This document shows, piece after piece, positions 661 through 20,681 of a stretch of DNA of 43,761 bases. The position numbers and the translations under genes were made by a program. This DNA is from Sphingomonadales bacterium (GTDB taxonomy: Bacteria > Pseudomonadota > Alphaproteobacteria > Sphingomonadales > Sphingomonadaceae): the NCBI GenBank assembly GCA_018334165.1, contig JAGXTB010000022.1, positions 1 through 43,761 on the forward strand, given 5' to 3'. Within the stretch, counting starts at the first letter, position 1. Each line of letters starts with the position of its first letter. The notes under the pieces are model-generated. The model worked only from the letters and a program-made list of their open reading frames with translations. It did no database searches and was not told where the DNA came from.

Positions 661-671
661 TGCTGCGCGCG

Positions 672-715: not shown

Positions 716-758
716 TAACGAAATGCCAAGGGGACGTCTCCCCTGCGGGATTACGGAC

Positions 759-1313: not shown

Positions 1314-1362
1314 TCCGCAGCAATCCTTGCCCCGCCGGGCCCAAGCCGCTATCGGCGCGGCC

Positions 1363-2895: not shown

Positions 2896-2903
2896 TGGTT
2901 GAT

Positions 2904-3037: not shown

Positions 3038-3043
3038 CATTTC

Positions 3044-5371: not shown

Positions 5372-5820
5372 CTCAGCTGCTCAAGGCCGGCTTCATCGAG
5401 CCCGCCGGGAATGACATAAACCGGGCAAGGCAGCTGCCCTGCGGTTGCAGCAAAGTGGGAGACCAGCGGACCAGGGCCGCCGCTGCTGGCCGCGCCAAGT
5501 ACCAGCGCCGAAACTTCGGGATGCTCGGCCAGGTAGTCGCGCACAACGCTGACCCCGTCGCCTTGCTTGACCGCGATTACCGGAGCCTTGCCGCCATCGC
5601 CCAGCAGCGAGCCCGCGGCTGCGGTCACCAGCGCCTCGGCCCGCAAGCGGGCCTCTTCCTCGATCGTGGCCTGGATTCCGCCGAAAGCCACGAATTGCTG
5701 GCGCGGGACCAGCGCCAGCAAGTGTACCGTGCCGCCGGTGCGCTGCGCCCGCCGCGCGGCAAAGCGCAGCGCCAGGCTGGCCTCATCGGTTTCGTCCATG
5801 ATCACCAGGTAAACGCGCAT
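5368..5820 (-). CDS. Universal stress protein (UspA family)
   Basis: Single-domain Usp protein of 150 residues, cytoplasmic, probably nucleotide-binding and induced in stress. The start gives MRVYLVIMDETDEASLALRFAARRA, a typical Usp opening beta strand and helix. The centre has TVHLLALVP and ALVLGAASSGGPGPLVSHFA, then the closing strand CPVYVIPGG. The GxxG-9x-G(S/T) ATP motif is only approximately kept, so ATP binding is uncertain. The start ATG (complement 5818-5820) lies 126 bases from pdhC, which diverges. The stop TAG shares the palindromic CTAG with the rnr stop, so the two genes converge with a 4-base overlap and no room for a terminator. Confidence 0.85.
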   Translation of the reverse strand: MRVYLVIMDETDEASLALRFAARRAQRTGGTVHLLALVPRQQFVAFGGIQATIEEEARLRAEALVTAAAGSLLGDGGKAPVIAVKQGDGVSVVRDYLAEHPEVSALVLGAASSGGPGPLVSHFAATAGQLPCPVYVIPGGLDEAGLEQLS

Positions 5821-5904
5821 GGCTGTTCCCCCCATCGGCGCGATATCTGCTACAAACGTATTCTGCGCAAGCATCTTGCCGAGAGCCGACATTTTGGCCA
5901 GAGA

Positions 5905-5929
5905 TGGTGCGTTACTTAGCCTTGCACCA
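5905..5929. promoter_or_regulatory. Inverted repeat upstream of pdhC
   Basis: TGGTGC at 5905-5910 and GCACCA at 5924-5929 form a perfect 6-base inverted repeat with a 13-base spacer, ending 17 bases before the pdhC start in the 126-base usp/pdhC divergent gap. It could be an operator or a leader hairpin. No regulator can be named from the sequence. Confidence 0.3.
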
Positions 5930-5946
5930 GGGACCAGTCGCCAGCC

Positions 5947-7188
5947 ATGCCGATCGCCATCAAGATGCCCGCGCTTTCGCCGACCATGGAGGAAGGCACG
6001 CTCGCCAAATGGCTGGTCAAAGTGGGCGACAAGGTCTCCTCGGGCGATATCATGGCCGAGATCGAGACCGACAAGGCGACGATGGAATTCGAAGCCGTCG
6101 ATGAAGGCGTGATTACCGCGATCGAAGTGGCCGAAGGCACCGAAGGCGTGAAGGTTGGCACGGTGATCGCCATGCTGGCGGGCGATGACGAGGATGCGAG
6201 CGCGGCTCCGGCACCCAAAGCAGCGCCCAAGCCGGCTGAAACCGCGCCGGTGCCTGCGCCTGCGCCTGCGGCAGTCCCCACTCCTGCGGCGCCGATATCG
6301 CAAGGCGAGCGCGTGATCGCCTCTCCCTTGGCCAAGCGGATCGCCGAGCAAAAGGGCGTCGATCTGAAAGGCGTTCAGGGATCCGGCCCCGGCGGCCGGA
6401 TCGTCAAGGCCGATGTCGCAGGGGCCCAGTCCGGGGCAGTGGCTCCCGCTGTCAGTGCCGCAGCCCCGGCACCGGCCGCGCCGACGTCTGACTTCGGCAT
6501 CCCTTACGAAGCCGAAAAGCTGGGCAACGTCCGCAAGGTTATCGCGCGCCGTCTGACCGAGGCCAAGCAGACCATTCCGCACATCTACCTGACTGTCGAT
6601 GTCCGGCTCGATGCCTTGCTCAAGCTGCGCGGTGAACTGAACAAGGCACTTGAAGCTGACGGCGTAAAGCTTTCAGTCAATGATCTTTTGATCAAGGCAC
6701 TGGCCAAGGCGCTGATCCGCGTGCCCAAGTGCAACGTCAGCTTTGCCGGAGACGAGCTGCGCAAATACAGCCGCGCCGATATCTCGGTCGCAGTGGCCGC
6801 GCCTTCGGGGCTGATCACGCCGATCGTGTTCGATGCCGCGACCAAGGGCGTCGCCCAGATCAGCACCGAAATGAAGGCGCTGGCCGACAAGGCCAAGGCC
6901 GGCAAGCTTCAGCCGCTCGAGTTCCAGGGCGGAACCGCCAGCCTGTCCAACCTCGGCATGTTCGGGATCAAGCAGTTCGACGCGGTGATCAACCCGCCGC
7001 AGGGCATGATCATGGCGGTCGGGGCGGGGGAACAGCGGCCTTATGTGGTCGATGGCGCACTGTCGGTCGCCAGCGTGATGTCTGCCACCGGCAGCTTTGA
7101 CCACCGTGCAATCGACGGGGCCGATGGGGCGCAGCTGATGCAGGCGTTCAAGGACCTGGTGGAGAACCCGTTGGGGCTGCTCGCATGA
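5947..7188 (+). CDS. pdhC: Pyruvate dehydrogenase E2, dihydrolipoamide acetyltransferase
   Basis: E2 core of the pyruvate dehydrogenase complex; it moves the acetyl group from E1 onto CoA via a lipoyl arm. In 413 residues it has one lipoyl domain ([20 protein letters not shown], lipoyl Lys43 in ETDKATME), an Ala/Pro-rich linker (about 85-115), a peripheral subunit-binding domain ([20 protein letters not shown]), a second Ala/Pro linker, and the acyltransferase domain ending with DHRAIDG (His386, Asp390). [20 protein letters not shown] marks the start of the catalytic domain and is PDH-type. E1 genes are not adjacent. lpd lies 857 bases downstream, after an unrelated outer-membrane gene. LipA, which makes the cofactor, is encoded at 42018-42950. 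The start ATG 5947 has a weak ribosome-binding site. Confidence 0.94.
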
Positions 7189-7273
7189 CAACCGCGGACA
7201 AGCTCAAAGGGTGGCCTAACTGCCACACAAATTTTGAGATTTGCCTTCGCGCCCGGCAAGCGGTGCCGTCACC

Positions 7274-7301
7274 TTGTCAACTAAACCTGACTTGATACTA
7301 A
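7274..7301 (+). promoter_or_regulatory. Candidate sigma70-type promoter for the outer-membrane gene
   Basis: TTGTCA at 7274-7279 and TACTAA at 7296-7301 are separated by 16 bases, about 40 bases before the ATG at 7343. A good Shine-Dalgarno, GGAGGA, is at 7331-7336. The hexamers are a partial match to the consensus, so this is a weak prediction. It would give the membrane-protein gene its own transcript, independent of pdhC. Confidence 0.3.
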
Positions 7302-7342
7302 GTCTCCAGCGCCACACAGGTGACGCCATCGGAGGATATTTT

Positions 7343-7984
7343 ATGCGGAAATTGCTTTTTGCAGCATTTGTACTGGGCGCGACACCGGCTTTTGCCGATG
7401 CGGGTGAGGAGCCCAAAGTTGGCGGGATGCGGATCGAGGTTCACGCCGGGATCGAGCGTCCGAACCTGAGCGATACCCAGGGCGGGACCACCTATGTCGC
7501 CTCGCTGGGTTCGGGCTTCGTCTATGGCGCCGAAATCGGCTATGACGTGAAGGTCTCTGAGACGGTCACGGTCGGACCCTATCTCAGCTTTGATGCTGGC
7601 GGTGCCAACAAGTGTGAGAACTACACCGATCCGGGCGTGAACGGGCAAGTGTGCTTCAAGTCGAAGTCCGACCTGTCGGTTGGCCTGCGCGGGGCCGCGC
7701 GGCTTGGCAGCAAGACCGAGCTCTACCTGGGGCTGGGCTATGACGTGTTCGACACTGACTTCACCATTGTCGAGCGCAATTCGGTGACCAACGCCGTGGT
7801 GTTCAACTATGCCGCCACCGAAAACCGCAAGGGCATTGGCGTCAGCTTTGGCGGGAACTACGATCTCTCGCGAAACATGTATATCGGCCTGGGCATGCGG
7901 GTTTCTGAACTGGGTGATTTTGAAGGCTCGGGGTTCAAACTCCAGCGTTTCCAGGGCCACGCGACCCTCGGATTCCGGTTCTAA
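7343..7984 (+). CDS. Outer-membrane beta-barrel protein (opacity/OmpW-like size)
   Basis: Exported protein of 213 residues. The signal peptide is MRKLLFAAFVLGATPAFA with cleavage after AFA. The mature chain has alternating strands typical of an 8-stranded barrel: VGGMRIEVHAGIERPNL, FVYGAEIGYDVKVSE, TVTVGPYLSFDAGG, LSVGLRGAARLGSKTELYLGLGYDV. It ends in a phenylalanine-final strand, GHATLGFRF, the usual outer-membrane targeting signal. Two cysteines (KCENYTDPG, VCFKSKS) may form a loop disulfide. ATG 7343 is chosen because it follows GGAGGA and starts the signal peptide. The gene sits between pdhC and lpd. No specific function is recognised. Confidence 0.8.
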   Translation: MRKLLFAAFVLGATPAFADAGEEPKVGGMRIEVHAGIERPNLSDTQGGTTYVASLGSGFVYGAEIGYDVKVSETVTVGPYLSFDAGGANKCENYTDPGVNGQVCFKSKSDLSVGLRGAARLGSKTELYLGLGYDVFDTDFTIVERNSVTNAVVFNYAATENRKGIGVSFGGNYDLSRNMYIGLGMRVSELGDFEGSGFKLQRFQGHATLGFRF

Positions 7985-7985
7985 T

Positions 7986-8024
7986 CGGGCGGGCCTCCGT
8001 GATCGCCCGGCTTTCACGGAGGCC
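7986..8024 (+). promoter_or_regulatory. Two mutually exclusive hairpins ahead of lpd
   Basis: Stem A pairs CGGGCG (7986-7991) with CGCCCG (8004-8009). Stem B pairs the 11 bases 7992-8002 (GGCCTCCGTGA) perfectly with 8014-8024. The arms interleave A-B-A-B, so the stems compete or form a pseudoknot-like fold. The block lies between the stop of the membrane-protein gene and the lpd Shine-Dalgarno (AAAGGAG, 8036-8042). No U-tract follows, so a simple intrinsic terminator is not clear. Confidence 0.55.
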
Positions 8025-8045
8025 TGACCTCCACAAAGGAGCACC

Positions 8046-9455
8046 ATGAGCGACTACGATGTAATCATCCTCGGATCGGGCCCGGGCGGCTATGTCTCGG
8101 CAATCCGCTGTGCGCAATTGGGGCTCAAGACGGCGATCGTCGAGCGGGAGAACCTGGGCGGGATCTGCCTCAACTGGGGCTGCATCCCGGCCAAGGCGCT
8201 GCTGCGCTCGGCCGAAGTGCTGCACCAGATGAAGCATGCGGCCGACTATGGCCTGGCGGCCGACAATGTGCGCGCGGACCTGGGCGCGGTGGTCAAACGC
8301 AGCCGCGGGGTGGCCAAACAGCTCAACCAGGGCGTCACGCACCTGATGAAGAAGAACAAGATCACCGTGCATATGGGCGTGGGGACGCTTCTGGGCGGCG
8401 GCAAGCTTGAGGTCAAAGGCGATAAGGGGAGCGAAACGCTTTCTGCCAAGCATATCGTGATCGCCACCGGCGCCCGCGCGCGCGACCTGCCCTTTGCCCC
8501 GGCCGATGGCAAACGCGTCTGGACCTATCGCCACGCGATGACTCCGGCCGAGCTGCCGGGCAAGCTGCTGGTAATCGGATCGGGCGCGATCGGAATCGAA
8601 TTCGCTAGCTTCTACAATGATATGGGAAGCGAAGTTACAGTCGTTGAGATGATGGACCGGATCGTTCCGGTTGAGGATGCCGACGTTTCGGCCTTCCTTG
8701 AGAAGGCGCTTAAGAAGCAGGGCATGACCATCATGACCGGGGCCGGGGTCGAGGCGCTGGCGGTGAGCGACAAGGGCGTCAAGGCGAAGATCAAGGCCAA
8801 GGACGGCACGGTCGCGGACAGCGAGTTCAGCCATGTGATTGTTGCGGTGGGGATCGTGCCAAACACTGAGAACATTGGCCTTGAAGCTGTTGGAGTTAAA
8901 GCAGAACGCGGGATTGTTGCGATTGATGGCCTGGGCCGCACCAATGTTCCGGGGGTCTGGGCGATCGGCGATGTCACTCCAGGCCCCTGGCTCGCGCACA
9001 AGGCCAGCCACGAAGGCGTGATCACTGCCGAGGCGATTGCTCAGGCGCTGGGCAACAAGGATGTCCATCCGCACGCGATGGACAAGGCCAACATCCCTGG
9101 CTGCACGTACTGCCACCCGCAAGTCGCCTCGGTCGGCCTGACCGAGGCCAAGGCCAAGGAGGCCGGCTACACGGTCAAGGCCGGGACTTTCCCGTTCATC
9201 GGCAACGGCAAGGCGATCGCGCTGGGTGAGGCGGAAGGCTTCATCAAGACCGTGTTCGACGCAAAAACCGGCGAACTACTGGGCGCGCATATGGTTGGTG
9301 CCGAAGTGACCGAACTGATCCAGGGCTATGTCGTGGGCAAGACGCTCGAGAGCACCGAGGCCGAGCTGATGGCTACCGTCTTTCCGCACCCGACGCTATC
9401 GGAAATGCTCCACGAAAGCGTGCTCGCGGCCTACGGACGCGCGCTGCACATCTGA
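8046..9455 (+). CDS. lpd: Dihydrolipoyl dehydrogenase (E3)
   Basis: FAD flavoprotein that reoxidises the dihydrolipoyl arm of E2 and passes electrons to NAD+. In 469 residues it has the FAD-binding start DVIILGSGPGGYVSAIRCAQ, the redox-active disulfide CLNWGC (Cys41, Cys46), the NAD-binding GSGAIGIEFASFY, and the second FAD motif VWAIGDVTPGPWLAHKA. The dimer domain carries the catalytic His-Glu segment HPTLSEMLHESVLAAYGRA. The CLNWGCIPAK form, in place of CLNVGC, is common in alphaproteobacterial E3. A strong AAAGGAG precedes ATG 8046. The TGA is one base from the convergent PilZ stop. It serves PdhC and probably other lipoyl complexes. Confidence 0.95.
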   Translation: MSDYDVIILGSGPGGYVSAIRCAQLGLKTAIVERENLGGICLNWGCIPAKALLRSAEVLHQMKHAADYGLAADNVRADLGAVVKRSRGVAKQLNQGVTHLMKKNKITVHMGVGTLLGGGKLEVKGDKGSETLSAKHIVIATGARARDLPFAPADGKRVWTYRHAMTPAELPGKLLVIGSGAIGIEFASFYNDMGSEVTVVEMMDRIVPVEDADVSAFLEKALKKQGMTIMTGAGVEALAVSDKGVKAKIKAKDGTVADSEFSHVIVAVGIVPNTENIGLEAVGVKAERGIVAIDGLGRTNVPGVWAIGDVTPGPWLAHKASHEGVITAEAIAQALGNKDVHPHAMDKANIPGCTYCHPQVASVGLTEAKAKEAGYTVKAGTFPFIGNGKAIALGEAEGFIKTVFDAKTGELLGAHMVGAEVTELIQGYVVGKTLESTEAELMATVFPHPTLSEMLHESVLAAYGRALHI

Positions 9456-9456
9456 C

Positions 9457-9804
9457 CTAGCGGCCTATCGCGAGCGCCTGGTTGGCCTGGCGGACCAGGT
9501 GCTCGAACACGGCAACATGCAGCGGGGCGGCAAATTCGCAGCCAACCTCGTTGCCGCGGTGCCAGCGGACATGTGCCGAAAGCAGCTGCATTCCCGGGAT
9601 CCGGATGCTGAGCGGCTTGATCGTGCTGGGCTGCGACAGGCCGGCGATCCGGAAGCCCGTTGGCGACAGATCGTCCAGGTGCACAACCTGCCACGGGCGC
9701 GTGCCCTGGCGCACTTCGCAGGCAATAACCAGAAGAGCACGATTGCTGGCGCGCGCGCAGTCTTGGCCGGTGGGGATGGCAGGAGTCATGGATTGATCGT
9801 TCAT
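9457..9804 (-). CDS. PilZ domain protein, probable c-di-GMP receptor
   Basis: Small stand-alone PilZ protein of 115 residues, cytoplasmic. It has both halves of the c-di-GMP-binding signature: RASNR (RxxxR) near the N-terminus and DLSPTG (DxSxxG) about 25 residues later. Barrel strands follow (IRIPGMQLLSAHVRWHRGNEVGCEF) and a C-terminal helix, HVAVFEHLVRQANQAL. The start is taken at the ATG (complement 9802-9804), preceded by ACAAGG; an earlier in-frame ATG at 9837 adds 11 non-conserved residues. It is convergent with lpd and divergent from the DUF11 locus that starts at 9972, so a link between c-di-GMP and surface proteins is possible but only inferred from position. Confidence 0.82.
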   Translation of the reverse strand: MNDQSMTPAIPTGQDCARASNRALLVIACEVRQGTRPWQVVHLDDLSPTGFRIAGLSQPSTIKPLSIRIPGMQLLSAHVRWHRGNEVGCEFAAPLHVAVFEHLVRQANQALAIGR

Positions 9805-9971
9805 CGCCTTGTCCGGTTGCCAGAACCGGGTTTCCAAATGGTAAGCGTACTGCGCGTTTTTTGCTGAAATGCTGACCCGGGCATGCCGATTGACGTGGTT
9901 CCGGGATGGAATCTCTGCCTAATGCAGTAACTTAATCGGCCATTTACCATTGCCGGCTAGGGAAAACCCTG

Positions 9972-11960
9972 ATGGGTCCGAAAACGAAACCTGAAGGTAC
10001 CGTAAGTGTACTGCTGAGCCGCCTGTGTTTGCAGGTGCTGCTGACCATTTGCGCGCTGGCTGGGTGGAGCTCTTCGGCCATGGCGCAGACGGTGACGCGC
10101 TACACCAACACCACTGACAGCGCGACCAACGCGATCAACGAGACCAACTTTCTCTGTCCGACTGTTTTCACGCGGTCTTTCACGGTTGGAACCAGCTATA
10201 CCGTCAGCGACGTCAATATCGCCGTTCTGATGAGCCACACCTGGCGCGCTGACATTTTGATGTATCTCGTGTCGCCGGGCGGAACGCGAGTGCAGCTGAC
10301 GAACGGGCAGGGGGCCGATGCCGACAATTTCAATCTAACCTTCGATGACGAAGCGGCCAGTGCGATCACTGCCTATACTGCCAATTCAACCGCCACTTCG
10401 ACCACCACAGTTCCGCCCTACAGCGCCAGCTTCCGGCCGACTGCCGCACTTACCGCCTTCGATGGGACCAACTCGGCAGGCAACTGGGTGCTTGAGATCT
10501 GCGACAATGCCAATGCCGACAGCGGGACCTTTTTCCAGGCAGACCTCTATCTAACCTCCAGCCCGACCAACTATGCCGACCTGTCGCTCGCGATGTCGCT
10601 AAGCAATGCGGCGCCCGCGACCGGTTCGACCGTCACCTACACGCTGACCATTGCCAATGCCGCGGGTTCACCTAACTCAGCAAGCGGTGTGGTGGTACGC
10701 CAGGCGCTGCCCAGCGGACTCAGTTTCGTCAGCGCAACAGCCAGCCTTGGCAGCTACAACTCAGCGACCGGAGACTGGAGCGTGGGAGCCCTCGCGCCAA
10801 ATCAGAATGCCACTTTGACTGTCACTGCAACGGTAACCGCAGCGGCGGGCACCAGCGTGGTCAATAGTGCCGAGGTAACCAGTTCGTCGATCACCGATCT
10901 TGATTCGACTCCCAACAACGCCGTGACCAGCGAAGACGACTTTGCCAGTACCACATTTACCGCCAGTTCAACCCGCAGCGCCGGTACCGCGCCGACGCTG
11001 ACATGTGCTGCCGGTTCGGCGTTGTTCGACTGGGACAGCCAGACCTGGAGCGCCGGGTCAACCTCGAACAACTACACGCTGACCGGGATCGGCGCCTTCA
11101 ACTTTGCGATCACCAATCCCGGGACATTCCTCAACAACGCGACCTATGGCGGTCAATCGCCGGCCCGGCAGACCGCCAACAATGGTGGGTTCAGCGGACA
11201 GAACTCCTTGGTGCAGCTGGTCGATATGGCCAACACCAGCCAGGTTGTGACCACGACGATCACACTGGGGACGGCCGCGCAGGGGGCCCAGTTCAGGATT
11301 CTCGACGTCGACTTTGCGTCCGGTCAGTTTGCCGACATGGCCACGGTTACGGGCTATCTGAACGGCAATGCCGTCAGTCCGACTCTGACCAATGGGGTGA
11401 CCAACTATGTGCTGGGCAACAGTGCTTATGGCGACGGGACTTCAGCGGACGGATCCGCCAATGGCAACATTGTCGTGACTTTCAACTCGCCGATCGACCA
11501 GATCGTTGTCCAATACGGCAACCACTCGCTTGCCCCCAGCAACCCTGGCCAACAAGCAATCACCCTGCATGATTTCACGCTGTGCCGGCCGGTGCCGAAC
11601 GTCAGCGTCACCAAGGTCAGCTCTGTCCTGTCCGACCCGGTCAATGGCACCACCAATCCCAAGGCCATTCCGGGCGCGGTGATGGAGTACTGCATCCTGA
11701 TTACCAACAACGGCACCGCCACACTGACCAGCCTTGCGGTGAGCGACACGCTGCCCGCGAACTTCACCTATGCTGCCGGAACGATGACCAGCGGAAGCAA
11801 TTGCGCCAGCGCCACCACAGCTGAGGATGACAACAATGCGGGCGCGGACGAGAGCGATCCGCACGGTGCCTCGATCAGTGCCGGAGTGCTTGGGGCAACA
11901 GCTTCAACGCTGACCGCTTCAAGCAGTTTTGCCCTCAAATTCCGGGGCACTGTTAACTGA
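9972..11960 (+). CDS. Secreted P/Homo B and DUF11 domain surface protein
   Basis: Exported protein of 662 residues. The signal peptide ends at SSSAMA before QTVTRYTN. Residues about 50-195 form a proprotein-convertase P (Homo B) domain: SYTVSDVNIAVLMSHTWRAD, YLVSPGGTRVQLTN, GNWVLEICDNANADSGTF. Usually this follows a subtilisin domain, but none is present. Next is a DUF11 beta-sandwich (about 200-320: ATGSTVTYTLTIANAAG). An unassigned 200-residue middle domain follows (LFDWDSQTWSAGST onward), then a second DUF11 (VSVTKVSSVLSDPVNGTTN) that ends exactly at the C-terminus with LKFRGTVN. AGGGA precedes ATG 9972. It is the first gene of the surface locus; a surface structural or adhesive role is inferred. 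Confidence 0.82.
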   Translation: MGPKTKPEGTVSVLLSRLCLQVLLTICALAGWSSSAMAQTVTRYTNTTDSATNAINETNFLCPTVFTRSFTVGTSYTVSDVNIAVLMSHTWRADILMYLVSPGGTRVQLTNGQGADADNFNLTFDDEAASAITAYTANSTATSTTTVPPYSASFRPTAALTAFDGTNSAGNWVLEICDNANADSGTFFQADLYLTSSPTNYADLSLAMSLSNAAPATGSTVTYTLTIANAAGSPNSASGVVVRQALPSGLSFVSATASLGSYNSATGDWSVGALAPNQNATLTVTATVTAAAGTSVVNSAEVTSSSITDLDSTPNNAVTSEDDFASTTFTASSTRSAGTAPTLTCAAGSALFDWDSQTWSAGSTSNNYTLTGIGAFNFAITNPGTFLNNATYGGQSPARQTANNGGFSGQNSLVQLVDMANTSQVVTTTITLGTAAQGAQFRILDVDFASGQFADMATVTGYLNGNAVSPTLTNGVTNYVLGNSAYGDGTSADGSANGNIVVTFNSPIDQIVVQYGNHSLAPSNPGQQAITLHDFTLCRPVPNVSVTKVSSVLSDPVNGTTNPKAIPGAVMEYCILITNNGTATLTSLAVSDTLPANFTYAAGTMTSGSNCASATTAEDDNNAGADESDPHGASISAGVLGATASTLTASSSFALKFRGTVN

Positions 11961-12195
11961 ATCGGGCTTCCGTTCCTTGTCGCAACGGATAGCCGGTCGA
12001 AGTAACGATCTCGGTCAGTTATTCAATAAATCAATATCTTATAGCATATTATTGCTATCAAACCCGAATTAAGCTTGAAACGCCCGGATTACGGCGCTTT
12101 CTGAATCAGGCCCTCACCAGCTTCCTACTGAAATCTAACGAAAATTAGAAAACCAGTTTGGGAGTTTGTTAACCCTGTGTCGCTACCACGCAGGC
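11961..12195. promoter_or_regulatory. AT-rich intergenic region with an inverted repeat
   Basis: This 235-base gap is markedly richer in A and T than its surroundings (roughly 12015-12165) and separates the first DUF11 gene from the next three and the barrel gene. ATAGCA (12041-12046) and TGCTAT (12053-12058) form an inverted repeat around TATTAT. No clear terminator is seen. It probably holds the promoter for the downstream genes, but I cannot assign a -35/-10 pair with confidence. Confidence 0.4.
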
Positions 12196-13182
12196 ATGAA
12201 GAACCATCTTGCCATGCGTGCCTCCTGGGGCACCGCTACCGTCGCCGCGCTGGGAGCCATGCTTGCTCCGGGCCTGGCCCATGCCGCCGGCGTAAGCGCC
12301 GGGACGCTGATCCAGAACACCGCTACGGCGACCTACACCTCGGGCACGACCAGTGGCTCGGTGACCTCGAACACGGTCACGGTCCGGGTCGATGAACTGC
12401 TCGATGTCGCAGTCGCCGGGCTGACCACCACGCCGGCGCTGGCCGGGGCCAGCAACGTCGTGCTGGAATATTCGCTCACCAACACCGGCAACGGTCCGGA
12501 GGCATTCAACCTGGTGGTCAACACCGCGGTGGCGGGCAACCAGTTCGATGCCGTGCTGCAATCGGTGGTGGTCGATACCAACGGCAACAACACCTACGAT
12601 CCGGGGGTCGATCAGGTCCTGACCAGCGGCCAGCCGACCCCTTCGATCGCCGCCGATGGCTCGCTCAGGGTCTTCGTGATCGTCAGCCTGCCGGGCACGG
12701 CCATCGATGGCCAGACCAGCCAGGTCCAGCTCAGCGCGACTGCGGTGACCGGATCGGGCACGCCGGGCACGGTCTTCGCGGGGCAGGGCCAGGGCGGCGG
12801 CGACGCCGTGGTAGGTGCCTCGACCGCGACCCAGAGCGCCAACGACGCCCTGATCGCGGCGCTGGCTACGGTCGCACTGACCAAAGCGGCCGCTGTGGCC
12901 GATCCGTTCGGCGGCACCCAGCCGGTCCCGGGCGCGGTGGTGACTTACACCCTGACCGCGACTGTCAGCGGGACCGGCCAGGCCGATAACCTGCACGTTA
13001 CCGACGTGATCCCGGCCGGAACCACTTACGAGATCGGCACGCTCACGCTCGATAGCGCCGCGCTGACTGACGGCAACGACACCGACGCCGGCGAGGCTTC
13101 GGCCGCCGGGATCGATGTGGACCTGGGCAATGTCGCGGGCGGCACGACCAAGGTCGTCACGTTCAAAGTCAAGATCGATTGA
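12196..13182 (+). CDS. Secreted DUF11-type surface protein
   Basis: Exported protein of 328 residues. The signal peptide region MRASWGTATVAALGAMLAPG ends LAHA before AGVSAGTLIQ. The mature N-terminus carries the motif IQNTATATYTSGTTSG...SNTVTVRV, shared with the proteins at 13742 and 14862. The centre holds an acidic loop, DTNGNNTYDPGVD, which looks like a Ca2+ site. The C-terminal DUF11 sandwich (VALTKAAAVADPFGG, VPGAVVTYTLTATV, LHVTDVIPAGTTYE) ends flush with the stop at VTFKVKID. The start is uncertain: ATG 12196 is preferred; TTG 12166 and ATG 12214 are alternatives. The next gene follows after 11 bases with its own GAGGAG, so the two are co-transcribed. Confidence 0.78.
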   Translation: MKNHLAMRASWGTATVAALGAMLAPGLAHAAGVSAGTLIQNTATATYTSGTTSGSVTSNTVTVRVDELLDVAVAGLTTTPALAGASNVVLEYSLTNTGNGPEAFNLVVNTAVAGNQFDAVLQSVVVDTNGNNTYDPGVDQVLTSGQPTPSIAADGSLRVFVIVSLPGTAIDGQTSQVQLSATAVTGSGTPGTVFAGQGQGGGDAVVGASTATQSANDALIAALATVALTKAAAVADPFGGTQPVPGAVVTYTLTATVSGTGQADNLHVTDVIPAGTTYEIGTLTLDSAALTDGNDTDAGEASAAGIDVDLGNVAGGTTKVVTFKVKID

Positions 13183-13193
13183 GGAGACCAGCA

Positions 13194-13667
13194 ATGAACA
13201 AGCTTCTGATTGCCGCCGTATCGGGCCTGCTGGCCAGCATGGCTGCACCGGCCGTTTCGGCCCAGGCCGCACAGCCGGTTGAACTGAAAGGCGATGTGAA
13301 AGTCGTCAAGGTAGTTGTTGAAAACGGGCAAGAAAAGCGCGTCCTGATCGATCCGAAAGTGGTCGTTCCGGGCGACAAGCTGATCTTCTCGACCGCCTAT
13401 CGCAACACCGGCGTCGAAGCGGTCAAGGATTTCGTGGTGACCAACCCGATCCCGGCCGGGGTCGCGCTGGCGCCGCAAGGGGCCGACAAGCTCGAGGTTT
13501 CGGTCGATGGCGGCAAGACCTGGGGGCGGCTTGCCGCGCTCAAGGTCAACAACGCCGCCGGGCCGCGCGCGGCAGAAGCCGGTGATGTCACGCATGTCCG
13601 TTGGGTCCTGCCGATGCTCGCACCCGGAGCCAGCGGCACGCTCACTTACAACGCTTTGGTCCGCTGA
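13194..13667 (+). CDS. Small secreted single-DUF11-domain protein
   Basis: Exported protein of 157 residues. The signal peptide is MNKLLIAAVSGLLASMAAPA with cleavage near VSAQA. The mature protein is a single DUF11-like sandwich: VKVVKVVVENGQEKRVLIDP, VVPGDKLIFSTAYRNTGVEA, FVVTNPIPAGVALAP, THVRWVLPMLAPGASGTLTY. It ends directly after the last strand, YNALVR. A clear Shine-Dalgarno (GAGGAGA) precedes ATG 13194. It lies between two larger DUF11 proteins in the same direction. As the smallest unit of the locus it is a plausible repeating or capping subunit, which is inference from size and position only. Confidence 0.8.
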   Translation: MNKLLIAAVSGLLASMAAPAVSAQAAQPVELKGDVKVVKVVVENGQEKRVLIDPKVVVPGDKLIFSTAYRNTGVEAVKDFVVTNPIPAGVALAPQGADKLEVSVDGGKTWGRLAALKVNNAAGPRAAEAGDVTHVRWVLPMLAPGASGTLTYNALVR

Positions 13668-13741
13668 GAAGCGGCACAACCGCCACGACACGCGGGCGGG
13701 CTTTTACGCGGGTCGCAAGGGTAACAGATGAGGACCAGACA

Positions 13742-14800
13742 ATGAGAAAGTATGGCAGACTGCTAGGGACGGTCGGTGCTGCTGCACTGGCCGTCGTTGG
13801 CGCAAGTCCAGCCTTTGCCGCGGGTACCGCGGCGGGCTCGACGATCACCAACACGGTGACCGTAAACTACCAGGTCGGCGGCGTATCGCAGACCGCAAGC
13901 TCGGCTTCGGATACCTTCACGGTCGACCGCAAGGTCAACCTGACGGTGGCCGAAGTCGGTACTACCACGACCCAGGTTTCGCCTGGCCAATCCGCGGTAG
14001 TGACCACCTTCACGGTGACCAACACCTCGAACGCGGTGCTCGACTTCGCGCTTGCCGCAGCTCAGCAGACGGGCGGAGCAGGGGCGCATGCGAACACCGA
14101 TACGTTCGATGCCACCAATGTGAAGATCTATGTCGATACCAACAACAACGGCTCGTACGATGCCGTTACCGATCTTGAGGTTGCATACCTTGACGAACTG
14201 GCAGCCGATGCCAGCCAGACGGTCTTCGTGGTCGCCGACATCCCGCTTAACCTGGCCACCAACGATGTGGCCGCGGTTACGCTGACTGCCACGGGCCGTG
14301 AAGGCGGCGCTGCGGCAAGCCAGGGTGCGGCGCTGAGCGAAACCACCGGGGCCAATACCGCGGGCATGGATACCGTCTTCGCCGATGGCGCGGGCGCAAC
14401 CGATGCCTCGCGCGATGCGGCGCATTCGGCCAAGGATGACTGGACTGTTCTGGCTGCCGCTTTGACGGTCAGCAAGCTCAGCACGGTGATCTCGGATCCG
14501 CTCAACGGGACCACCAATCCCAAGGCGATTCCGGGTGCCACGATCGAGTATTGCATCGTCGTCTCGAACGCTGCGGGCAGTGCCGCTGCCAGCTCTGTCG
14601 CCATCTCGGATCCGCTGCCCAGCACGGTCACGTACGATTCGGGCTACGGTATCTTCCTCAACGGTTCGGTCACCTCGGGTGCCTGCAACGCGGACGGAAC
14701 TGCCGGCGGTTCGTTTGCGTCGGGCACGGTCAGCGGCACGCTGACCAGCGTCGCGGCGAGCGAAACCAAGACGCTGCGCTTCCGCGCGACGATCAACTAA
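13742..14800 (+). CDS. Secreted DUF11-type surface protein
   Basis: Exported protein of 352 residues with signal peptide MRKYGRLLGTVGAAALAVVG...ASPAFA. The mature N-terminus, AGSTITNTVTVNYQVGG, matches the start of the 12196 protein. An acidic loop, DTNNNGSYDAVTD, corresponds to the same putative Ca2+ site. The C-terminal DUF11 domain begins LTVSKLSTVISDPLNGTTN and shares the 12-residue string NGTTNPKAIPGA with the C-terminal domain of the 9972 protein. It ends flush at LRFRATIN. The start ATG 13742 is chosen for the signal peptide. The 74-base gap upstream has a weak G+C hairpin near 13680-13700. A strong hairpin lies after the stop, before the giant barrel gene. Confidence 0.8.
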   Translation: MRKYGRLLGTVGAAALAVVGASPAFAAGTAAGSTITNTVTVNYQVGGVSQTASSASDTFTVDRKVNLTVAEVGTTTTQVSPGQSAVVTTFTVTNTSNAVLDFALAAAQQTGGAGAHANTDTFDATNVKIYVDTNNNGSYDAVTDLEVAYLDELAADASQTVFVVADIPLNLATNDVAAVTLTATGREGGAAASQGAALSETTGANTAGMDTVFADGAGATDASRDAAHSAKDDWTVLAAALTVSKLSTVISDPLNGTTNPKAIPGATIEYCIVVSNAAGSAAASSVAISDPLPSTVTYDSGYGIFLNGSVTSGACNADGTAGGSFASGTVSGTLTSVAASETKTLRFRATIN

Positions 14801-14807
14801 CCAGGGG

Positions 14808-14840
14808 GCGGGCGGCATGCACCTGATGCATGTCGCCCGC
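14808..14840 (+). promoter_or_regulatory. Strong hairpin between the last DUF11 gene and the giant barrel gene
   Basis: Arms 14808-14821 (GCGGGCGGCATGCA) and 14827-14840 (TGCATGTCGCCCGC) pair with one mismatch around a 5-base loop, CCTGA. It begins 7 bases after a stop codon and ends 21 bases before the preferred start at 14862. It lacks a U-tract, so it may act as an mRNA-processing or attenuation stem. An alternative ATG at 14817 would lie inside the stem. Confidence 0.6.
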
Positions 14841-14861
14841 TGCCGCAGCTCCCAAGGGTCG

Positions 14862-17800
14862 ATGGGCGTTCTCAGGCAAATCGTTACGGTCATGGCAGCG
14901 CTGTTCGCGCTGCTTTTTGTCGTTCCGATGGCCAGCGCCCAGGCCCAGAGCCAGACCATCGACAATATTGCTGCCGCGCAGTGGGGCCAGGGCGGGAGTA
15001 CCCGTTCAACCAGTTCGAACCTTGTTTCGATCTCGCTGGCTGCACAGTCGGCAACGATCGATACGCTGGTTCCTTCCAGTGGGGGTCAGTCGCATGGCTT
15101 CAGCGCACCCACTTGCGGGGGAAGCCCGCTCAATCTTCCGGGCGGCTTGGGTTCCAGCAATCCCACCGCCACGCTGACGCCGACCTCGACCTACCGGATC
15201 GGCGAACTGCTGTTTTTCCAGGCTTCTGCCGCTTCGGCCAACCTCGATCAGGCGGCAATTGACACCCTGACAGCCACGCTCACCACCAGTTCGGGTGACA
15301 GCGAAGTGCTGACCATTTTCGAAACCGGGCTCAACACCGGGGTGTTCCTGGGCGCCATCCCCACTGTGGGCATGCCGCCCGCACCCACCCATGGCGATTG
15401 CCGCCTGTCCACTGTTGGCGGGACCCGGGTGACCATCGCGGTTAGCGGTTCCAGCTCGGGTAACACCATCGCTACTGCTCAGGTCAATGTCCTGGCCGAC
15501 CCCTTCGGGCTGGTCTTCGACAGCGAAACCGGCACCCCGATCAATGGCGCGCGGGTCACGCTGGTCGATGCGATCACCGGAGCTCCGGCGCGGGTCTATG
15601 GCGACGATGGGGTCACCTTGTGGCCGTCGACCGTCTATTCGGGCCAGAACGTGATCGACGGCGCGGGCAATGTCCACGTCATGGCCCCTGGCGAATACCG
15701 CTTCCCGCTGGCCGCACTGGGCCAGTACCGGATCGTCATCGAACCGCCTGCGCCCTATACTGCGCCTTCGGCCGCCACGCCGGTCCAGCTTTCATCCCTG
15801 CGCCGCCCGGATGGGCTGCCATTTATCATTGTCCCCGGCTCGTTCGGTGGGGTGATCACGCTTGACGGCCCCGCACCGGTCCGGGTCGATATTCCGCTCG
15901 ACCATCCGCCGGTCGCCGTTTCGCTGACCAAGGTCGCTTCGCGCGCCGTGGCGCAGCCGGGCGATGCGGTGTTCTATACCGTGACCGTGCGCAATCCCGA
16001 TCCGCTGGGGCCAAAGCGCGGGGTGACGCTGGTCGATACTCCGTCGCCGTGGTTGCGCCTGCGTCCGGATTCGGTCCGGATTGACGGGATCGCCGCGCCG
16101 GGTGCGGTACAGGTTGCCCCGGACGGACGTAGCGTGACGCTTTTGCTGGGCGATATCCCTGCGCTCGACAGCCGGACCATCACTTACGCGATGACCGTGC
16201 GCGCCGATGCCCCCGCCGGACAGGCCGAAAACCGCGTCGTTGCAACCGACAGCCGCGGGCTTTCGACCACGACCGGCGCCGTTGTCCGGATCGACCGCCA
16301 GGATATCGCTGCACGCATGACAATTATTGGCCGGATCACCGACGGCGGCTGCTCCGTTGAAGGCAATCGCCAGGGAATTCCGGGCGTTCGCGTGGTCATG
16401 GAGGACGGAACCTTCGCGATCACCGATGCCGATGGACGCTACCACATCGACGGCGTGGTGCCGGGGACGCATGTTGTGCAGGCGCAGTGGCAAACGCTGC
16501 CCAAAGGCGGCTTTTTCACCGATTGCACCCGCTCGACCCGCAGTGCTGGCAGCGCCAGCTCGCGCTTCGTGATTGGGCAGGGCGGCAGCCTGGTGACCGC
16601 CGATTTTTCCGCGAAATTGCTTGAAGGTTCGCTTGTAAAGCACGAAAATAACCGCGCAAAACTCGGTTATGAAGCCACCGAAGGCAAAGCCGGCGTCAAG
16701 ACCGCCGAACAACAGGCCAGCGAAGCTGCGGAACGCCGCGCCGCGGGTGCCGATACTGATTGGATGGCCAAAGGCGACGGCCCGACCGAATTCCTGTTCC
16801 CCGCCGTGGACCACAACCCGCGCGCTCCGGCCATCCGTGTCGCGATCCGCCACCGCGCAGGCCAGAAGGTTGAGCTGAGCCTGGGCGGCAAAGCGGTCGA
16901 TCCGCTGAGCTTCGATGGCGCGCGGGCTGCCCCGGGCGGGACCTTTGCGGTCAGCCTGTGGCGCGGGATTCCGCTGACCGGCGAAGTGACCAAGCTTTCG
17001 GCAATTGTGCGCGACGACAAGGGCCAGGAAGTGGCCCGCCTGTCACGCGATGTCTATTACTCCGCCACCCCGGCCCGGGTCGAACTGATCCCGGCCAAGA
17101 GCAAGCTGGTGGCCGATGGCAGCACCCGCCCGGTGCTGGCGCTGCGGATCCTCGATCACAACGGCCGTCCGGTCCATGCTGGCCTCACCGGCGAGTTCAC
17201 GCTGTCCGCGCCCTACGAAAGCGCCGCCGCAATCGACGCGCTGCAACAGCGTCAGCTTTCGGGGCTGGGCCGCCAGGCTCCGCGCTGGATGGTCAAGGGC
17301 GATGACGGCATTGCCTATGTCGAACTGGCCCCGACCATGGCCAGCGGCAAGCTCCACATGGAATTCAACTTCAGCGATGGCCAGCAGCGCCGCCGCCAGG
17401 AGCTCGACGCCTGGGTTGTTCCGGGTGAGCAGCCCTGGACCGTGGTTGGCCTGGCCGAAGGCACTGTCGGCAAAGGCGCGCGCGGCACTGTGGCCAAGGG
17501 CATGGAACGCACCGGCGCTTTCGACAGCGACCTGGGTCAGCATGCCCGCGTGGCTTTCTATGCCAAGGGTCCGGTGGTGAAGGGCCTGCTGCTGACCGCT
17601 GCCTATGACAGCGCCAAGCAGAAGGACGACAAGCAGCTGCTCGGCACGATCGATCCGCGCGCTTACTACACTGTCTTCGCCGACGGATCGGATCGCCGCA
17701 GCGATGCCGCCAGCCGCGACAAGTTCTACCTCAAGCTGGAAAGCAGCAAGGGCTACGCCATGTATGGCGACTTCGAGGCTGGCTTCGACCAGACCCAGCT

Positions 17801-19961
17801 GGCCCGCTACAACCGCACCGCGACCGGCCTCAAGGCCGAAGTCAACGCCGGCGGCTTCCACGCCCAGGGCTTTGCCGCCAAGGTTGCGACCACGCACCGC
17901 CGCGACGAGATCCAGGGCGGGGGCATTTCCGGTCCCTACCGCCTCTCCAGCCGCGCGCTGATCGCGGGCAGCGAAGTGGTGACCATCGAAGTGCGCGACC
18001 GCTTCCGCAGCGAAGTGATCGTCGAGCGCCGCAGCCTGACCCGCTATGTCGATTACACCATCGACCTGCTTTCGGGCACGATCACCTTCAAGGAGCCGGT
18101 GCTGAGCCGCGACGCCAATCTCAACCCGCAATTCATCGTGATCGACTACGAACTCGATCCGGCCACGGCCAAGGGCGGCGAATGGAACGGCGGTGTCCGC
18201 GCTGACTTGACCGTCGCCAAGGGCGCTCTGCGTGTGGGCGGCAGCGTGATCAGCGACACCAGCGCCAACAACCAGACCCGCACCACCCTGATGGCGCTCG
18301 ACCTCAAGGCCCGCCTTGGCCTGGCGACCGAAGTGCGCGCCGAATATGCCCGCAGCCACAATCAGGGCAAGCAGGCCGAAGCCATGCTGGTTGAGGTCGA
18401 GCATCGTTCCGGCCGGTTCGACCTGCTCGCCTACTTCCGTCAGGCCGACCGCGAGTTTGGTCTGGGCCAGACCAGCGGAGCCGAACTTGGCCGCCGCAAG
18501 ATCGGTCTGGATGCCCGCGTGCGGATCACCCCCGACCTGTCGGTGGTGACCAGCGGCTGGGTTGACGACAGCCTGACCGACGGCACCCGCCGGGTTGCGG
18601 TGCAGACCGGGCTCAACTGGCGCACCGCCAAGGGTGAGGCGCGGATCGGCTATGCCCATTTCAACGACCGCCGCCAGGATGGCAGCCAGGCCAAGAGTGA
18701 CGTGATCGAAGCCTCGGTCTCGCGCCGGTTCCTCGACAACAAGCTTGAGATCAGCGCCGCGACCAGCTTTGCGATCGGCAAGAGCGAGTCGGTCGATCTG
18801 CCCGAGCGCCACCGCTTCACCGCGCGCTATGCGGTCAGCAATGCGGTCAAGCTGGTCGGCACTTACGAAATCGCCATCGGCGAGAGCCTCGATGCCCGCA
18901 CTGGCCGGATCGGCGTGGAAGTCGCCCCGTGGAGCGGCGGGCGCGTAACCGGCATGCTCGGCCAGCAAGAGCTCAGCGAATTCGGCAAGCGCAGCTTCGC
19001 CGCCTTCGGCCTGTCGCAGTCGATCCCGGTGACCAAGACGCTGACGCTCGACGCGACGCTCGATTCAAACCGCACGCTGTCGGGCTTCAACCTCAATGAC
19101 CTGGTCAACCCTGCGCACCCCGCTTCCAGCGGCGGCTCGATTGGCGCGACCGGAGCCCTGGCCGAAGACTTCACTGCGGTGACGCTGGGCGGCTCGTGGC
19201 GCTCGGGCCTGTGGAGCGCGACGCTCCGCGGCGAATGGCGCGATGGCGAGCTGGGCACCCGCAAGGGCGCGACCTTTGGTCTGCTGCGCCAGCTCGGCAA
19301 TGGCTCGATGCTGGGTACCGGAGCAACCTGGACCAAGGCCGATGCCAGCACCGGCGCGACCACTGAAATGTTCGACGGCGCGATTGCGCTGGCGCATCGC
19401 CCGGCCAATTCGGACTTCGCATTCCTCAGCAAGGTCCGGTTCCGTTCGGATATTGTCCACGGCGCGGTCGCAGGCGAAGCCGGGGCCGCAGGGCGTTCAA
19501 TCTTCACCATCAATGGCGATGCCCGCTCGGACCGCCTGATCGCCAGCGTCTCGGGCGACTGGACCCCGCGCAGCAAGGACGATGGCCAATATGTCCAGCG
19601 CCACAATCTGGGCTTCTTCCTGGGCGCCCGCCACAACTTCGACCGCTTCGAAGGCTATGACCTGTCCAGCACTACGGTGCTCGGCGGGCTCGACCTGCGC
19701 TATGGCATCGGCGATCACTTCGAAATCGGTGCGATTGGCAACGTGCGCTACAACGTGCAGGACAAGACCGCGCAGTTCTCCTACGGCCCGCAGATCGGGA
19801 TCTCGCCGACCAAGGATGTGCTGCTGCTGCTGGGCTACAACGTGACCGGCTTCCGCGACCCCGATTTCTCGGCACTGCGCAGCACCGACCAGGGCCTGTT
19901 CGCCTCGGTCAAGGTCAAGTTCGACGCCGATACCTTCAGCTTCCTGGGACTGGGGCGTTAA
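14862..19961 (+). CDS. Giant multidomain outer-membrane protein of the DUF11 locus
   Basis: Exported protein of about 1,699 residues. The signal peptide is MGVLRQIVTVMAALFALLFV...ASA before QAQS. Order: N-terminal module IDNIAAAQWGQGGS, as in its neighbours; a prealbumin-like domain (about 212-310, FDSETGTPINGARVTLVD); a DUF11 domain (about 352-476, VSLTKVASRAVAQPGDAVFY); a carboxypeptidase-regulatory-like domain (about 486-545, GIPGVRVVMEDGTFAITDAD); a charged linker; a Big_1-like Ig domain (about 737-857, KSKLVADGSTRPVLALRI). About 840 residues of alternating strands follow, including RYVDYTIDLLSGTITFKEPV, ending VKVKFDADTFSFLGLGR. The last part looks like a very large outer-membrane barrel. 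ATG 14862 has AAGGG upstream; ATG 14817 (1,714 aa) is the alternative. Probably an anchor, assembler or exporter for the upstream proteins; inferred. Confidence 0.8.
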   Translation: MGVLRQIVTVMAALFALLFVVPMASAQAQSQTIDNIAAAQWGQGGSTRSTSSNLVSISLAAQSATIDTLVPSSGGQSHGFSAPTCGGSPLNLPGGLGSSNPTATLTPTSTYRIGELLFFQASAASANLDQAAIDTLTATLTTSSGDSEVLTIFETGLNTGVFLGAIPTVGMPPAPTHGDCRLSTVGGTRVTIAVSGSSSGNTIATAQVNVLADPFGLVFDSETGTPINGARVTLVDAITGAPARVYGDDGVTLWPSTVYSGQNVIDGAGNVHVMAPGEYRFPLAALGQYRIVIEPPAPYTAPSAATPVQLSSLRRPDGLPFIIVPGSFGGVITLDGPAPVRVDIPLDHPPVAVSLTKVASRAVAQPGDAVFYTVTVRNPDPLGPKRGVTLVDTPSPWLRLRPDSVRIDGIAAPGAVQVAPDGRSVTLLLGDIPALDSRTITYAMTVRADAPAGQAENRVVATDSRGLSTTTGAVVRIDRQDIAARMTIIGRITDGGCSVEGNRQGIPGVRVVMEDGTFAITDADGRYHIDGVVPGTHVVQAQWQTLPKGGFFTDCTRSTRSAGSASSRFVIGQGGSLVTADFSAKLLEGSLVKHENNRAKLGYEATEGKAGVKTAEQQASEAAERRAAGADTDWMAKGDGPTEFLFPAVDHNPRAPAIRVAIRHRAGQKVELSLGGKAVDPLSFDGARAAPGGTFAVSLWRGIPLTGEVTKLSAIVRDDKGQEVARLSRDVYYSATPARVELIPAKSKLVADGSTRPVLALRILDHNGRPVHAGLTGEFTLSAPYESAAAIDALQQRQLSGLGRQAPRWMVKGDDGIAYVELAPTMASGKLHMEFNFSDGQQRRRQELDAWVVPGEQPWTVVGLAEGTVGKGARGTVAKGMERTGAFDSDLGQHARVAFYAKGPVVKGLLLTAAYDSAKQKDDKQLLGTIDPRAYYTVFADGSDRRSDAASRDKFYLKLESSKGYAMYGDFEAGFDQTQLARYNRTATGLKAEVNAGGFHAQGFAAKVATTHRRDEIQGGGISGPYRLSSRALIAGSEVVTIEVRDRFRSEVIVERRSLTRYVDYTIDLLSGTITFKEPVLSRDANLNPQFIVIDYELDPATAKGGEWNGGVRADLTVAKGALRVGGSVISDTSANNQTRTTLMALDLKARLGLATEVRAEYARSHNQGKQAEAMLVEVEHRSGRFDLLAYFRQADREFGLGQTSGAELGRRKIGLDARVRITPDLSVVTSGWVDDSLTDGTRRVAVQTGLNWRTAKGEARIGYAHFNDRRQDGSQAKSDVIEASVSRRFLDNKLEISAATSFAIGKSESVDLPERHRFTARYAVSNAVKLVGTYEIAIGESLDARTGRIGVEVAPWSGGRVTGMLGQQELSEFGKRSFAAFGLSQSIPVTKTLTLDATLDSNRTLSGFNLNDLVNPAHPASSGGSIGATGALAEDFTAVTLGGSWRSGLWSATLRGEWRDGELGTRKGATFGLLRQLGNGSMLGTGATWTKADASTGATTEMFDGAIALAHRPANSDFAFLSKVRFRSDIVHGAVAGEAGAAGRSIFTINGDARSDRLIASVSGDWTPRSKDDGQYVQRHNLGFFLGARHNFDRFEGYDLSSTTVLGGLDLRYGIGDHFEIGAIGNVRYNVQDKTAQFSYGPQIGISPTKDVLLLLGYNVTGFRDPDFSALRSTDQGLFASVKVKFDADTFSFLGLGR

Positions 19962-20156: not shown

Positions 20157-20681
20157 ATGAGCGAGAACACTGCACCCGAAGCTGCCGCTACACCTGGCCC
20201 GCTGGCCGCCATCGCCATTACCGCGATCATTGTGGTCCTGATCGTCGCCTGGATAGCGATTGCGATCGGCGCCTTGGGGTTGAGCGACACCACGCTGGTC
20301 GGGGCCTTCATGTTCCTGTGGTACTGGGCCAATAACGAGCAGATGCAATTCACCCGGCTGGTCCCCGCGATGCTGGGATCGCTGGTCGGGATCGGGATTG
20401 CCTGGCTGCTGTGGTACGGCCCCGCGGCCTATGGCGGGGCAGGGCTGGCCGGCGGGCTTGGCGTGCTGATCGTGGCGCTCTATCTCGATATCACCAAGAT
20501 GGTTCCGATCGCAGTCAACACCGCCACCATGCTGTTCCTCACCCTCGCGGCTGCACCGCTGATCCAGTTGCAGGTCGATTGGCTCGAGCTGGTCAAATCG
20601 ACCGTGCTGGGCGGGCTGTTCTTTGCGGGGGCGGTCTGGGGCTTGCAGAAGCTGGCGGCAAAGTTCGCTCCTGCAAGTTAA
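20157..20681 (+). CDS. Integral membrane protein of unknown function
   Basis: Protein of 174 residues with about five hydrophobic segments: AIAITAIIVVLIVAWIAIAI, TLVGAFMFLWYWANN, LVPAMLGSLVGIGIAWLLWY, GLGVLIVALYLDITK with NTATMLFLTLAAAPLIQ, and STVLGGLFFAGAVWGLQKL. The N-terminal 17 residues are polar and Ala/Pro-rich. No catalytic or transport motif is recognised. A Shine-Dalgarno-like AAGGGGG precedes ATG 20157. It stands alone between a palindromic element and a tRNA gene. The composition resembles small inner-membrane DUF families; I cannot name one. Confidence 0.75.
   Translation: MSENTAPEAAATPGPLAAIAITAIIVVLIVAWIAIAIGALGLSDTTLVGAFMFLWYWANNEQMQFTRLVPAMLGSLVGIGIAWLLWYGPAAYGGAGLAGGLGVLIVALYLDITKMVPIAVNTATMLFLTLAAAPLIQLQVDWLELVKSTVLGGLFFAGAVWGLQKLAAKFAPAS

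Follow-up and report, generated by a model that had tools for sequence, protein, structure and literature searches.

The locus at positions 9,972 to 19,961 raises the question of how four small DUF11 proteins and one giant protein, encoded in a row, might form a surface structure without a recognizable assembly machinery. The window (the whole 43,761-nucleotide stretch that was analyzed) is one contig of a 3.1 Mb genome that comprises 247 contigs and is about 94% complete. Its five plus-strand ORFs, D1 to D4 and BIG, lie between lpd, with its divergent PilZ gene, and a small ORF (20157-20681) that matches no Pfam family clearly. The first-pass annotation described five same-strand genes with signal-like N-termini, DUF11 domains, and a barrel-like end of BIG; the ORFs and the DUF11 and TIGR01451 scores bear this out, as does remote profile similarity in the case of the barrel. 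Its reading of a single surface system, with subunits first and an outer-membrane partner last, gains support from the conserved gene order, co-occurrence in genomes, and natural fusions and splits between DUF11 and barrel proteins. The locus probably, at roughly 60%, encodes a thin surface fiber formed by donor-strand complementation of DUF11 (CLIPPER) domains, with its base in BIG; this view is drawn from sequence comparison. The likely linkage, which goes beyond the earlier description, is a strand missing in one protein and a matching N-terminal strand in the next.

All five N-termini read as a hydrophobic stretch followed by an AxA-like site; they were judged by eye from sequence and are termed signal-like only. 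D1 (9972..11960) continues with a P_proprotein domain (proprotein-convertase P-domain; about 10206-10538; Pfam, 3e-12), a complete internal DUF11 (10578-10925), a middle domain, and a C-terminal strand-less DUF11 (11601-11957) that has a gap and no donor strand. D2 (12166..13182, with a likely ATG at 12196) harbors a donor-strand candidate, GTLIQNTATATY (12301..12336), an Ig-like region, and a C-terminal strand-less DUF11 (12871-13179). D3 (13194..13667) consists of one strand-less DUF11 (13296-13664), in which Asn replaces the catalytic Asp, and has no donor strand. D4 (13742..14800) repeats the plan of D2, with a donor-strand candidate, GSTITNTVTVNY (13835..13870), an Ig-like region, and a C-terminal strand-less DUF11 (14462-14797). 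BIG (14862..19961; 1,699 residues) starts with the donor-strand candidate SQTIDNIAAAQW (14949..14984; AQTITNTATASW in a relative) and carries N-terminal domains, a complete DUF11 (15918..16250), a CarboxypepD_reg domain (16365..16487; Pfam), an Ig-like region, and, by profile comparison, a barrel-like C-terminus (residues 845-1699; 17394..19958) that includes a conserved plug-like segment (GGGISGPYRL ... FIVIDYEL; 17916..18155). The P-domain of D1 and the CarboxypepD_reg domain of BIG are additions to the first-pass annotation. The DUF11 scores, in bits for Pfam and TIGR01451, respectively, are 111.8 and 65.5 for D1, 24.5 and 31.1 for D2, 21.1 and 24.4 for D3, and 19.3 and 26.5 for BIG. D4 reaches 28.7 with TIGR01451; one search gave a DUF11 match for it and another gave no Pfam DUF11.

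Of 37 same-genus genomes, the window's own included, 12 encode BIG, either in full or cut by a contig end, and two more have a partial relative; BIG is absent from 24 genomes of other genera of the order. The two named relatives detected with BIG are Novosphingobium MAGs, at 95% (locus L024) and 82% (L025) identity, so the window probably comes from Novosphingobium or a closely related genus. Seventeen loci were compared with the window genes, of which L018 (cut by a contig edge), L037 and L038 (distant), and L039 (an unlinked paralogue) were set aside. In each of the 13 remaining loci, all long enough to show it, the order D2-D3-D4-BIG is kept; genome G018 contributes two of these loci, and the flanks differ in many of the 13. 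D1 adjoins D2 in only four of these loci, and G005 and G007 have a D1 relative immediately following BIG; the core is therefore D2-D3-D4-BIG. Thus, the proposed co-occurrence of five genes holds for these four (13/13) and fails for D1, which is a variable, adhesin-like gene instead of a member of an invariant set. D1, or a protein sharing its C-terminal domain, is present in every same-genus genome with BIG except G008 (11 of 12), and a D1-type match occurs in 1 of the 25 other genomes (G001, 83% complete). In G014, the D1-type matches are D2 and D4 themselves.

When genomes were searched with a 12-row profile of the barrel region, 10 of 289 in the class had a match, as did 56 of 398 in the phylum. 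DUF11 occurs in 90 of the same 398 genomes, namely in 55 of the 56 barrel-positive versus 35 of the 342 barrel-negative ones (Fisher p 4e-42, with genomes counted regardless of relatedness). This co-occurrence is partly trivial, because many barrel genes themselves hold DUF11. Of 46 barrel loci fetched, a subset of all barrel matches, 44 have DUF11 in the barrel frame or in another frame of the stretch. The other barrel relatives, L063 and L064, show no detectable DUF11 within 19 kb, which would fit a barrel able to work without DUF11 or a partner too distant to recognize. Type A (29 loci) combines two to four small DUF11 proteins with a giant that has both the barrel and an internal DUF11. 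Type B (14 loci, sorted by hand) has a barrel frame of about 975-1,480 residues without DUF11, and in 11 of the 14 a DUF11 gene, mostly long, stands just before the barrel gene. L060 has an intermediate layout, and L065 and L067 are unsorted; a 4,548-residue frame of the latter (10-13653) is an extreme case of fusion, with DUF11 and part of the barrel profile on a single chain.

The barrels of both types are homologous (hhalign E 9e-107 over 788 columns). Residues 206-549 of BIG match type B giants (tblastn; L037 3e-13, L038 2e-15), so that BIG resembles the C-terminal portion of a type B giant to which a barrel has been joined. As the computation shows, split-gene type A loci and single-chain adhesin-plus-barrel loci share ancestry. 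The first part of the barrel, plug included, has relatives in 24 plasmid records (roseobacters, rhizobia, and two cyanobacteria), annotated as TonB-dependent receptor, OmpA family, DUF11, or hypothetical, and the barrel family seems to reach beyond its phylum.

The C-terminal DUF11 of each of D1 to D4 is cut off before the last strand, as seen with Pfam and with a model of internal domains. The Pfam matches of C-terminal domains stop at model position 64-87 of 114, and the internal copy of D1 spans 1-111. A second model of 126 columns was built from 86 internal domains. Its 32 matches that end within 5 residues of the frame end stop at columns 91-100, 30 of them at 93-95; the lone match reaching column 100, in L032, is cut by the locus edge. 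Among the other matches, 98 of 164 reach columns 110-126; however, the remaining 66 likewise stop before column 110, which is counter-evidence. In the consensus of 62 complete domains, drawn from 12 of the 15 stretches fetched from genomes that have no barrel match, a strand "TvTvtv" is followed by "sGtitNTATVss". Most C-terminal DUF11 chains of the small proteins end 0-2 residues past the match. The chain runs on for 7-98 residues in L027, L031, L035, L066, L091, L097, L098, and L101; several of these exceptions end in the same kind of strand, and L027 has an unread residue. Unlinked proteins on G000:C87 and G034:C19 likewise stop at the gap, and the regular expression finds no strand in them (5 of the 12 proteins tried in this check were resolved). 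The one on contig C87 of the genome itself (L039 5993-7342, minus strand) is a 450-residue D1-like protein with 50% identity to D1 58-335, one complete DUF11, and a strand-less C-terminal DUF11, possibly a spare tip adhesin.

The mature N-termini of D2, D4, and BIG resemble the missing DUF11 strand, Asn included, whereas D1, D3, and the downstream extra genes mostly have the gap without the strand. Across loci, positions are numbered from the barrel protein (0), with -1 just before the barrel gene and +1 downstream. A 12-column profile of the missing strand, made from the same 62 domains of genomes without a barrel match and scored in the N-terminal zone (shuffle p<0.05), is positive for 16 of 29 proteins at -1, 20 of 29 barrel proteins, and 6 of 26 at -3, and for 1 of 6 at -4, 4 of 29 at -2, 0 of 7 at +1, and 3 of 15 type B barrel frames. 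When the training set is restricted to type B loci, the counts are 14/28 at -1, 13/28 for the barrel, 5/26 at -3, 0/6 at -4, 0/28 at -2, and 0/6 at +1. An HMM of the strand plus its tail (E<=10) finds 16 of 84 N-termini at donor positions; it finds none of the 42 at other positions, none of the 15 type B barrels, and 6 of 1,285 other frames, which served as decoys. The three tests agree in placing the signal at -1, 0, and partly -3 and stay close to background at -4, -2, and +1. A regular expression, composed after looking at the sequences, matches 28/28 at -1, 25/28 barrel proteins, 19/26 at -3, 3/28 at -2 (L034, L095, and L096, where the gene order differs), 0/6 at -4, and 0/6 at +1; the motif is thus missing in 3 of 28 barrel proteins and 7 of 26 proteins at -3.

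These signals are individually faint: the best HMM E-value of a single donor is 0.06, several 12-column hits do not directly follow the signal peptide (e.g., barrel proteins of L025, L036, L066, L095, and L096), and several hits at -3 are a second SNTVTV-like strand. A rival reading is that D1 to D4 are ordinary DUF11 surface proteins with short C-terminal Ig-like copies and low-complexity T/N/A/V N-termini, and that BIG is a porin-like adhesin. The matches are indeed short and weak one by one, and such proteins are rich in T, N, A, and V residues. Moreover, acceptor and donor joined in silico score no better than joins with shuffled N-termini when untrimmed; in most of the appended pieces, the donor sat 7-21 residues in. 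Once the pieces had been trimmed on the motif itself, which favors the test, and with no composition correction, the mean gain is 5.4 bits versus 1.7 for shuffled and 1.8 for reversed pieces, and 6.9 versus 2.3 and 2.4 with the second model. AlphaFold2 gave no confirmation, with a mean pLDDT of 51 for D4 and 29 for the barrel. However, the signal is confined to certain gene positions, against controls that include shuffled copies and the neighboring DUF11 proteins of the same operons, and chain breaks such as those of L060 are hard to account for in this way. This plain reading is quite unlikely.

The structural comparisons are of limited discrimination. The C-terminal domain of the D4 model aligns with 9IFR at Z 7.7 (VIA-align) over chain residues 18-109, a range that runs past the proposed missing strand and disagrees with the register used, and unrelated Ig-like chains reach equal or higher Z. 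Foldseek found no match for the D4 model at E<=0.001, and PDB sequence searches with D4, barrel, and plug yielded nothing useful. The approximately 200 residues of D4 between strand and gap are modeled, at low confidence, as another Ig-like domain.

L060 offers a natural split. Three consecutive secreted proteins precede its barrel, and, read by eye, the first two end in the penultimate DUF11 strand. After the signal peptide, the second protein begins with AENTATITAPAGAIETNTANNSATDSDTV and the third with AVVTNTASISAPDDVIEVNTADNTVQDSDTL, both resembling a last strand with its inter-domain tail. The strand profile gives p 0.002 for the third protein, 0.17 for the second, and 0.09 for the barrel, which has no such N-terminal strand. 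This arrangement is as expected if a single-chain stalk had been cut at strand junctions that can re-form.

L060 also bears on whether the strand could serve its own chain. D2 and D4 carry strand and gap on one polypeptide, and intramolecular isopeptides are the rule for CLIPPER domains (PMC12617251), so these proteins might be self-complemented monomers in which a circularly permuted domain closes on itself, giving a coat and no polymer. Such closure appears unlikely. In L060, strands and gaps pair between consecutive chains; BIG has a strand and no gap; D1, D3, and the downstream extras have a gap and mostly no strand; and in D4 the ~200 intervening residues separate the two elements.

The chemistry of the domain suggests how the joints might be sealed. 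DUF11 corresponds to CLIPPER, which forms a Lys-Asn isopeptide bond; in the 712-812 domain the residues are Lys 715, Asp 748, and Asn 806, the Asn being near the domain end (PMC12617251). The placement of Asn 806 of 9IFR on the last strand is approximate only, because the alignment mapping is one residue off the published Asp 748. In sequence, Lys, Asp, and last-strand Asn are all present in the complete DUF11 of BIG and are divided between chains for D1, D2, and D4. In 12 aligned D4 orthologues, the donor Asn, Lys, and Asp are invariant. By regular expression, 22 of 26 proteins at -3 have both Lys and Asp; at -1 the figure is 17 of 28, the expression having misread five others at Asn-Asp and left six unread. 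At -2, the usual site of D3, 20 of 28 proteins have Asn at the catalytic position and 3 have Asp, the other 5 being unread, and in some the Lys is replaced by Arg; D3 should therefore seldom form the bond.

In the fiber proposed here, the N-terminal strand of subunit n+1 would insert into the gap of subunit n, each of D1 to D4 ending in a DUF11 that lacks its last strand and the strand following the signal peptide of D2, D4, or BIG replacing it, bonding Asn included. Where Lys and Asp are kept (D1, D2, and D4 of the window), a Lys-Asn isopeptide could then lock the joint with no enzyme required, in the manner of a natural split domain. The predicted polarity runs from D1 (P-domain and gap, no strand) as the tip cap, through D2 and D4 (strand and gap) as the shaft, to BIG (strand, no gap, its own DUF11 complete) as the base, whose C-terminal barrel would fix it in the outer membrane. 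D3, with a gap, no strand, and Asn for Asp, would be a non-covalent partner, perhaps a reversible periplasmic holder of donor strands; it may instead be a tip. The P-domain of D1 fits a tip adhesin, as does that found weakly in the -4 gene of L097; the other extra genes have no adhesin family match.

The barrel assignment itself is indirect. The last ~850 residues of BIG have no Pfam or NCBIfam match at E<=1, and no match at that threshold was found in BIG for the TonB-dependent receptor families PF00593 and PF07715 or for PF03797-type autotransporter barrels; there is likewise no TpsB family match in Pfam. The barrel-region profile has no PDB sequence match, BIG alone finds only a beta-galactosidase among PDB sequences (E 0.022), and the AlphaFold2 model of the barrel (1,051 residues; three rows, from the window, L024, and L025) is unusable at its pLDDT. 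In contrast, a profile built from 25 diverse members of the family matches TonB-dependent receptors at E 2.5e-9 over 539 columns and ushers at 1e-9 over 241 columns, with LptD at only 0.02 and nothing below 0.05 for the reversed profile. Type A barrels alone give 8e-6 (65 columns) and 6e-6 (227 columns) for TonB-dependent receptors and ushers, respectively, and classical ushers taken alone give 0.004. The usher similarity begins at the plug-like segment, and a crude scan counts 48 amphipathic ten-residue segments, plug included. The C-terminus of BIG is thus predicted to be an outer-membrane barrel with an internal plug-like segment, its closure as a barrel, like the insertion of donor strands, being a prediction. 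Membership among the ushers was rejected because TonB receptors fit equally well. Type 11 secretion (DUF560) was also dropped, as BIG has no DUF560 match at E<=1; in the portion of the type 11 secretion paper available (PMC12282271), text matching "DUF11" is mostly DUF1194.

The first-pass annotation had the barrel anchor, export, or polymerize the small proteins. Export of D1 to D4 through BIG, which would then act as a pore of usher or type V kind gated by the in-barrel segment, with fiber attachment secondary, is a tentative possibility and only a partial rival, since it is compatible with anchoring. It would suit the very long barrel-like region with its internal plug-like segment, the usher similarity that starts there, and a genome (about 94% complete) without an usher or PapD match. 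However, the similarity to TonB-dependent receptors is as strong and that of classical ushers alone far weaker, and the N-terminus of BIG, with its donor-like strand, would itself need export. The giant of L102 (type B) has an OmpA-like tail by eye, and the type B barrel protein of L100 has an OmpA domain (PF00691, 7.6e-18), which suggests anchoring. Anchoring through BIG's own N-terminal strand is better supported than export or polymerization by the barrel; export of the small proteins through it is possible.

Chaperone-usher pili have an N-terminal donor strand, incomplete Ig-like subunits, a tip adhesin without a donor strand, and an outer-membrane partner. These features are also given in the introduction of PMC9715654. 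At the sequence level the locus shows a similar pattern, in which the donor strands, the incomplete Ig folds, the tip adhesin, and the outer-membrane partner are all predicted. However, it differs in using another Ig family, a donor strand on the membrane protein, and predicted covalent joints. As the first-pass annotation had remarked of the usher-like order, no PapD-type chaperone (PF00345; E. coli control positive) is matched in the genome itself, and no usher (PF00577) in the genome or BIG beyond the remote hhalign similarity shared with TonB receptors.

Type V secretion (autotransporter and two-partner) knows fused and separate arrangements of passenger and barrel. The fused and separate layouts parallel types A and B; however, BIG has no autotransporter or TpsB match and its barrel-like region is far larger. 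CLIPPER fibrillar adhesins such as Acinetobacter silvestris B9T28_05395 are single long chains with an OmpA-like anchor (PMC12617251). The window locus resembles them in its DUF11 stalk, its predicted Lys-Asp-Asn chemistry, and its secretion, as far as the signal-like N-termini tell, and the OmpA-like anchor recalls some type B relatives. In contrast, the stalk is divided here among several secreted proteins, five chains in all, at an apparent junction before the last strand, with a barrel-like region at the base; single long chains with tandem DUF11 stalks occur in the type B relatives.

Archaeal threads (Saci_0406) combine donor-strand complementation with a proposed intermolecular isopeptide, from the N-terminal amine to an Asn two subunits away, in a subunit without a Pfam domain (PMC9715654). 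They are shared in principle and differ in being archaeal and in using another protein and another bond. SpyTag/SpyCatcher, a man-made split of a Gram-positive adhesin domain (PMC5814910), likewise reseals an isopeptide domain between two chains; here the split would be natural. The available part of the F-ENA preprint places DUF11 in the anchor protein only. DUF11 stalks with isopeptides and donor-strand fibers are already known, as is the combination of both in the other protein of archaeal threads. No account of a split DUF11 fiber or of this barrel family was found in the open-license literature, a scope outside which most subscription journals fall. The locus may, tentatively and at less than even odds, represent a Gram-negative fiber class in which split CLIPPER subunits assemble by donor-strand insertion and spontaneous intermolecular Lys-Asn bonds without sortase, chaperone, or usher. 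Such a fiber would be bonded covalently to the N-terminus of a giant outer-membrane barrel, which might double as its exporter, with an isopeptide-dead D3 shielding strands before assembly. If so, bacteria evolved on their own a split, resealing domain akin to SpyTag/SpyCatcher for surface fibers without the usual assembly enzymes. A function would then be at hand for widespread, uncharacterized partners, DUF11 proteins and a barrel found in 56 of the 398 phylum genomes sampled, with clear and cheap predictions in an environmental genus.

The PilZ-domain gene adjoining the locus (9457..9837, minus strand; PF07238, 8e-7) is matched at the corresponding site in L024, L025, and L028, and c-di-GMP control of the fiber through it is possible. 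A small OMP_b-brl protein gene lies at 7334-7984 in the window, between pdh E2 and lpd, with a match in L024 and none in L025. Finally, and unrelated to the fiber, the minus strand at 32064-37167 encodes an NtrY-like kinase (33488-35713) between two sigma-54-type response regulators.
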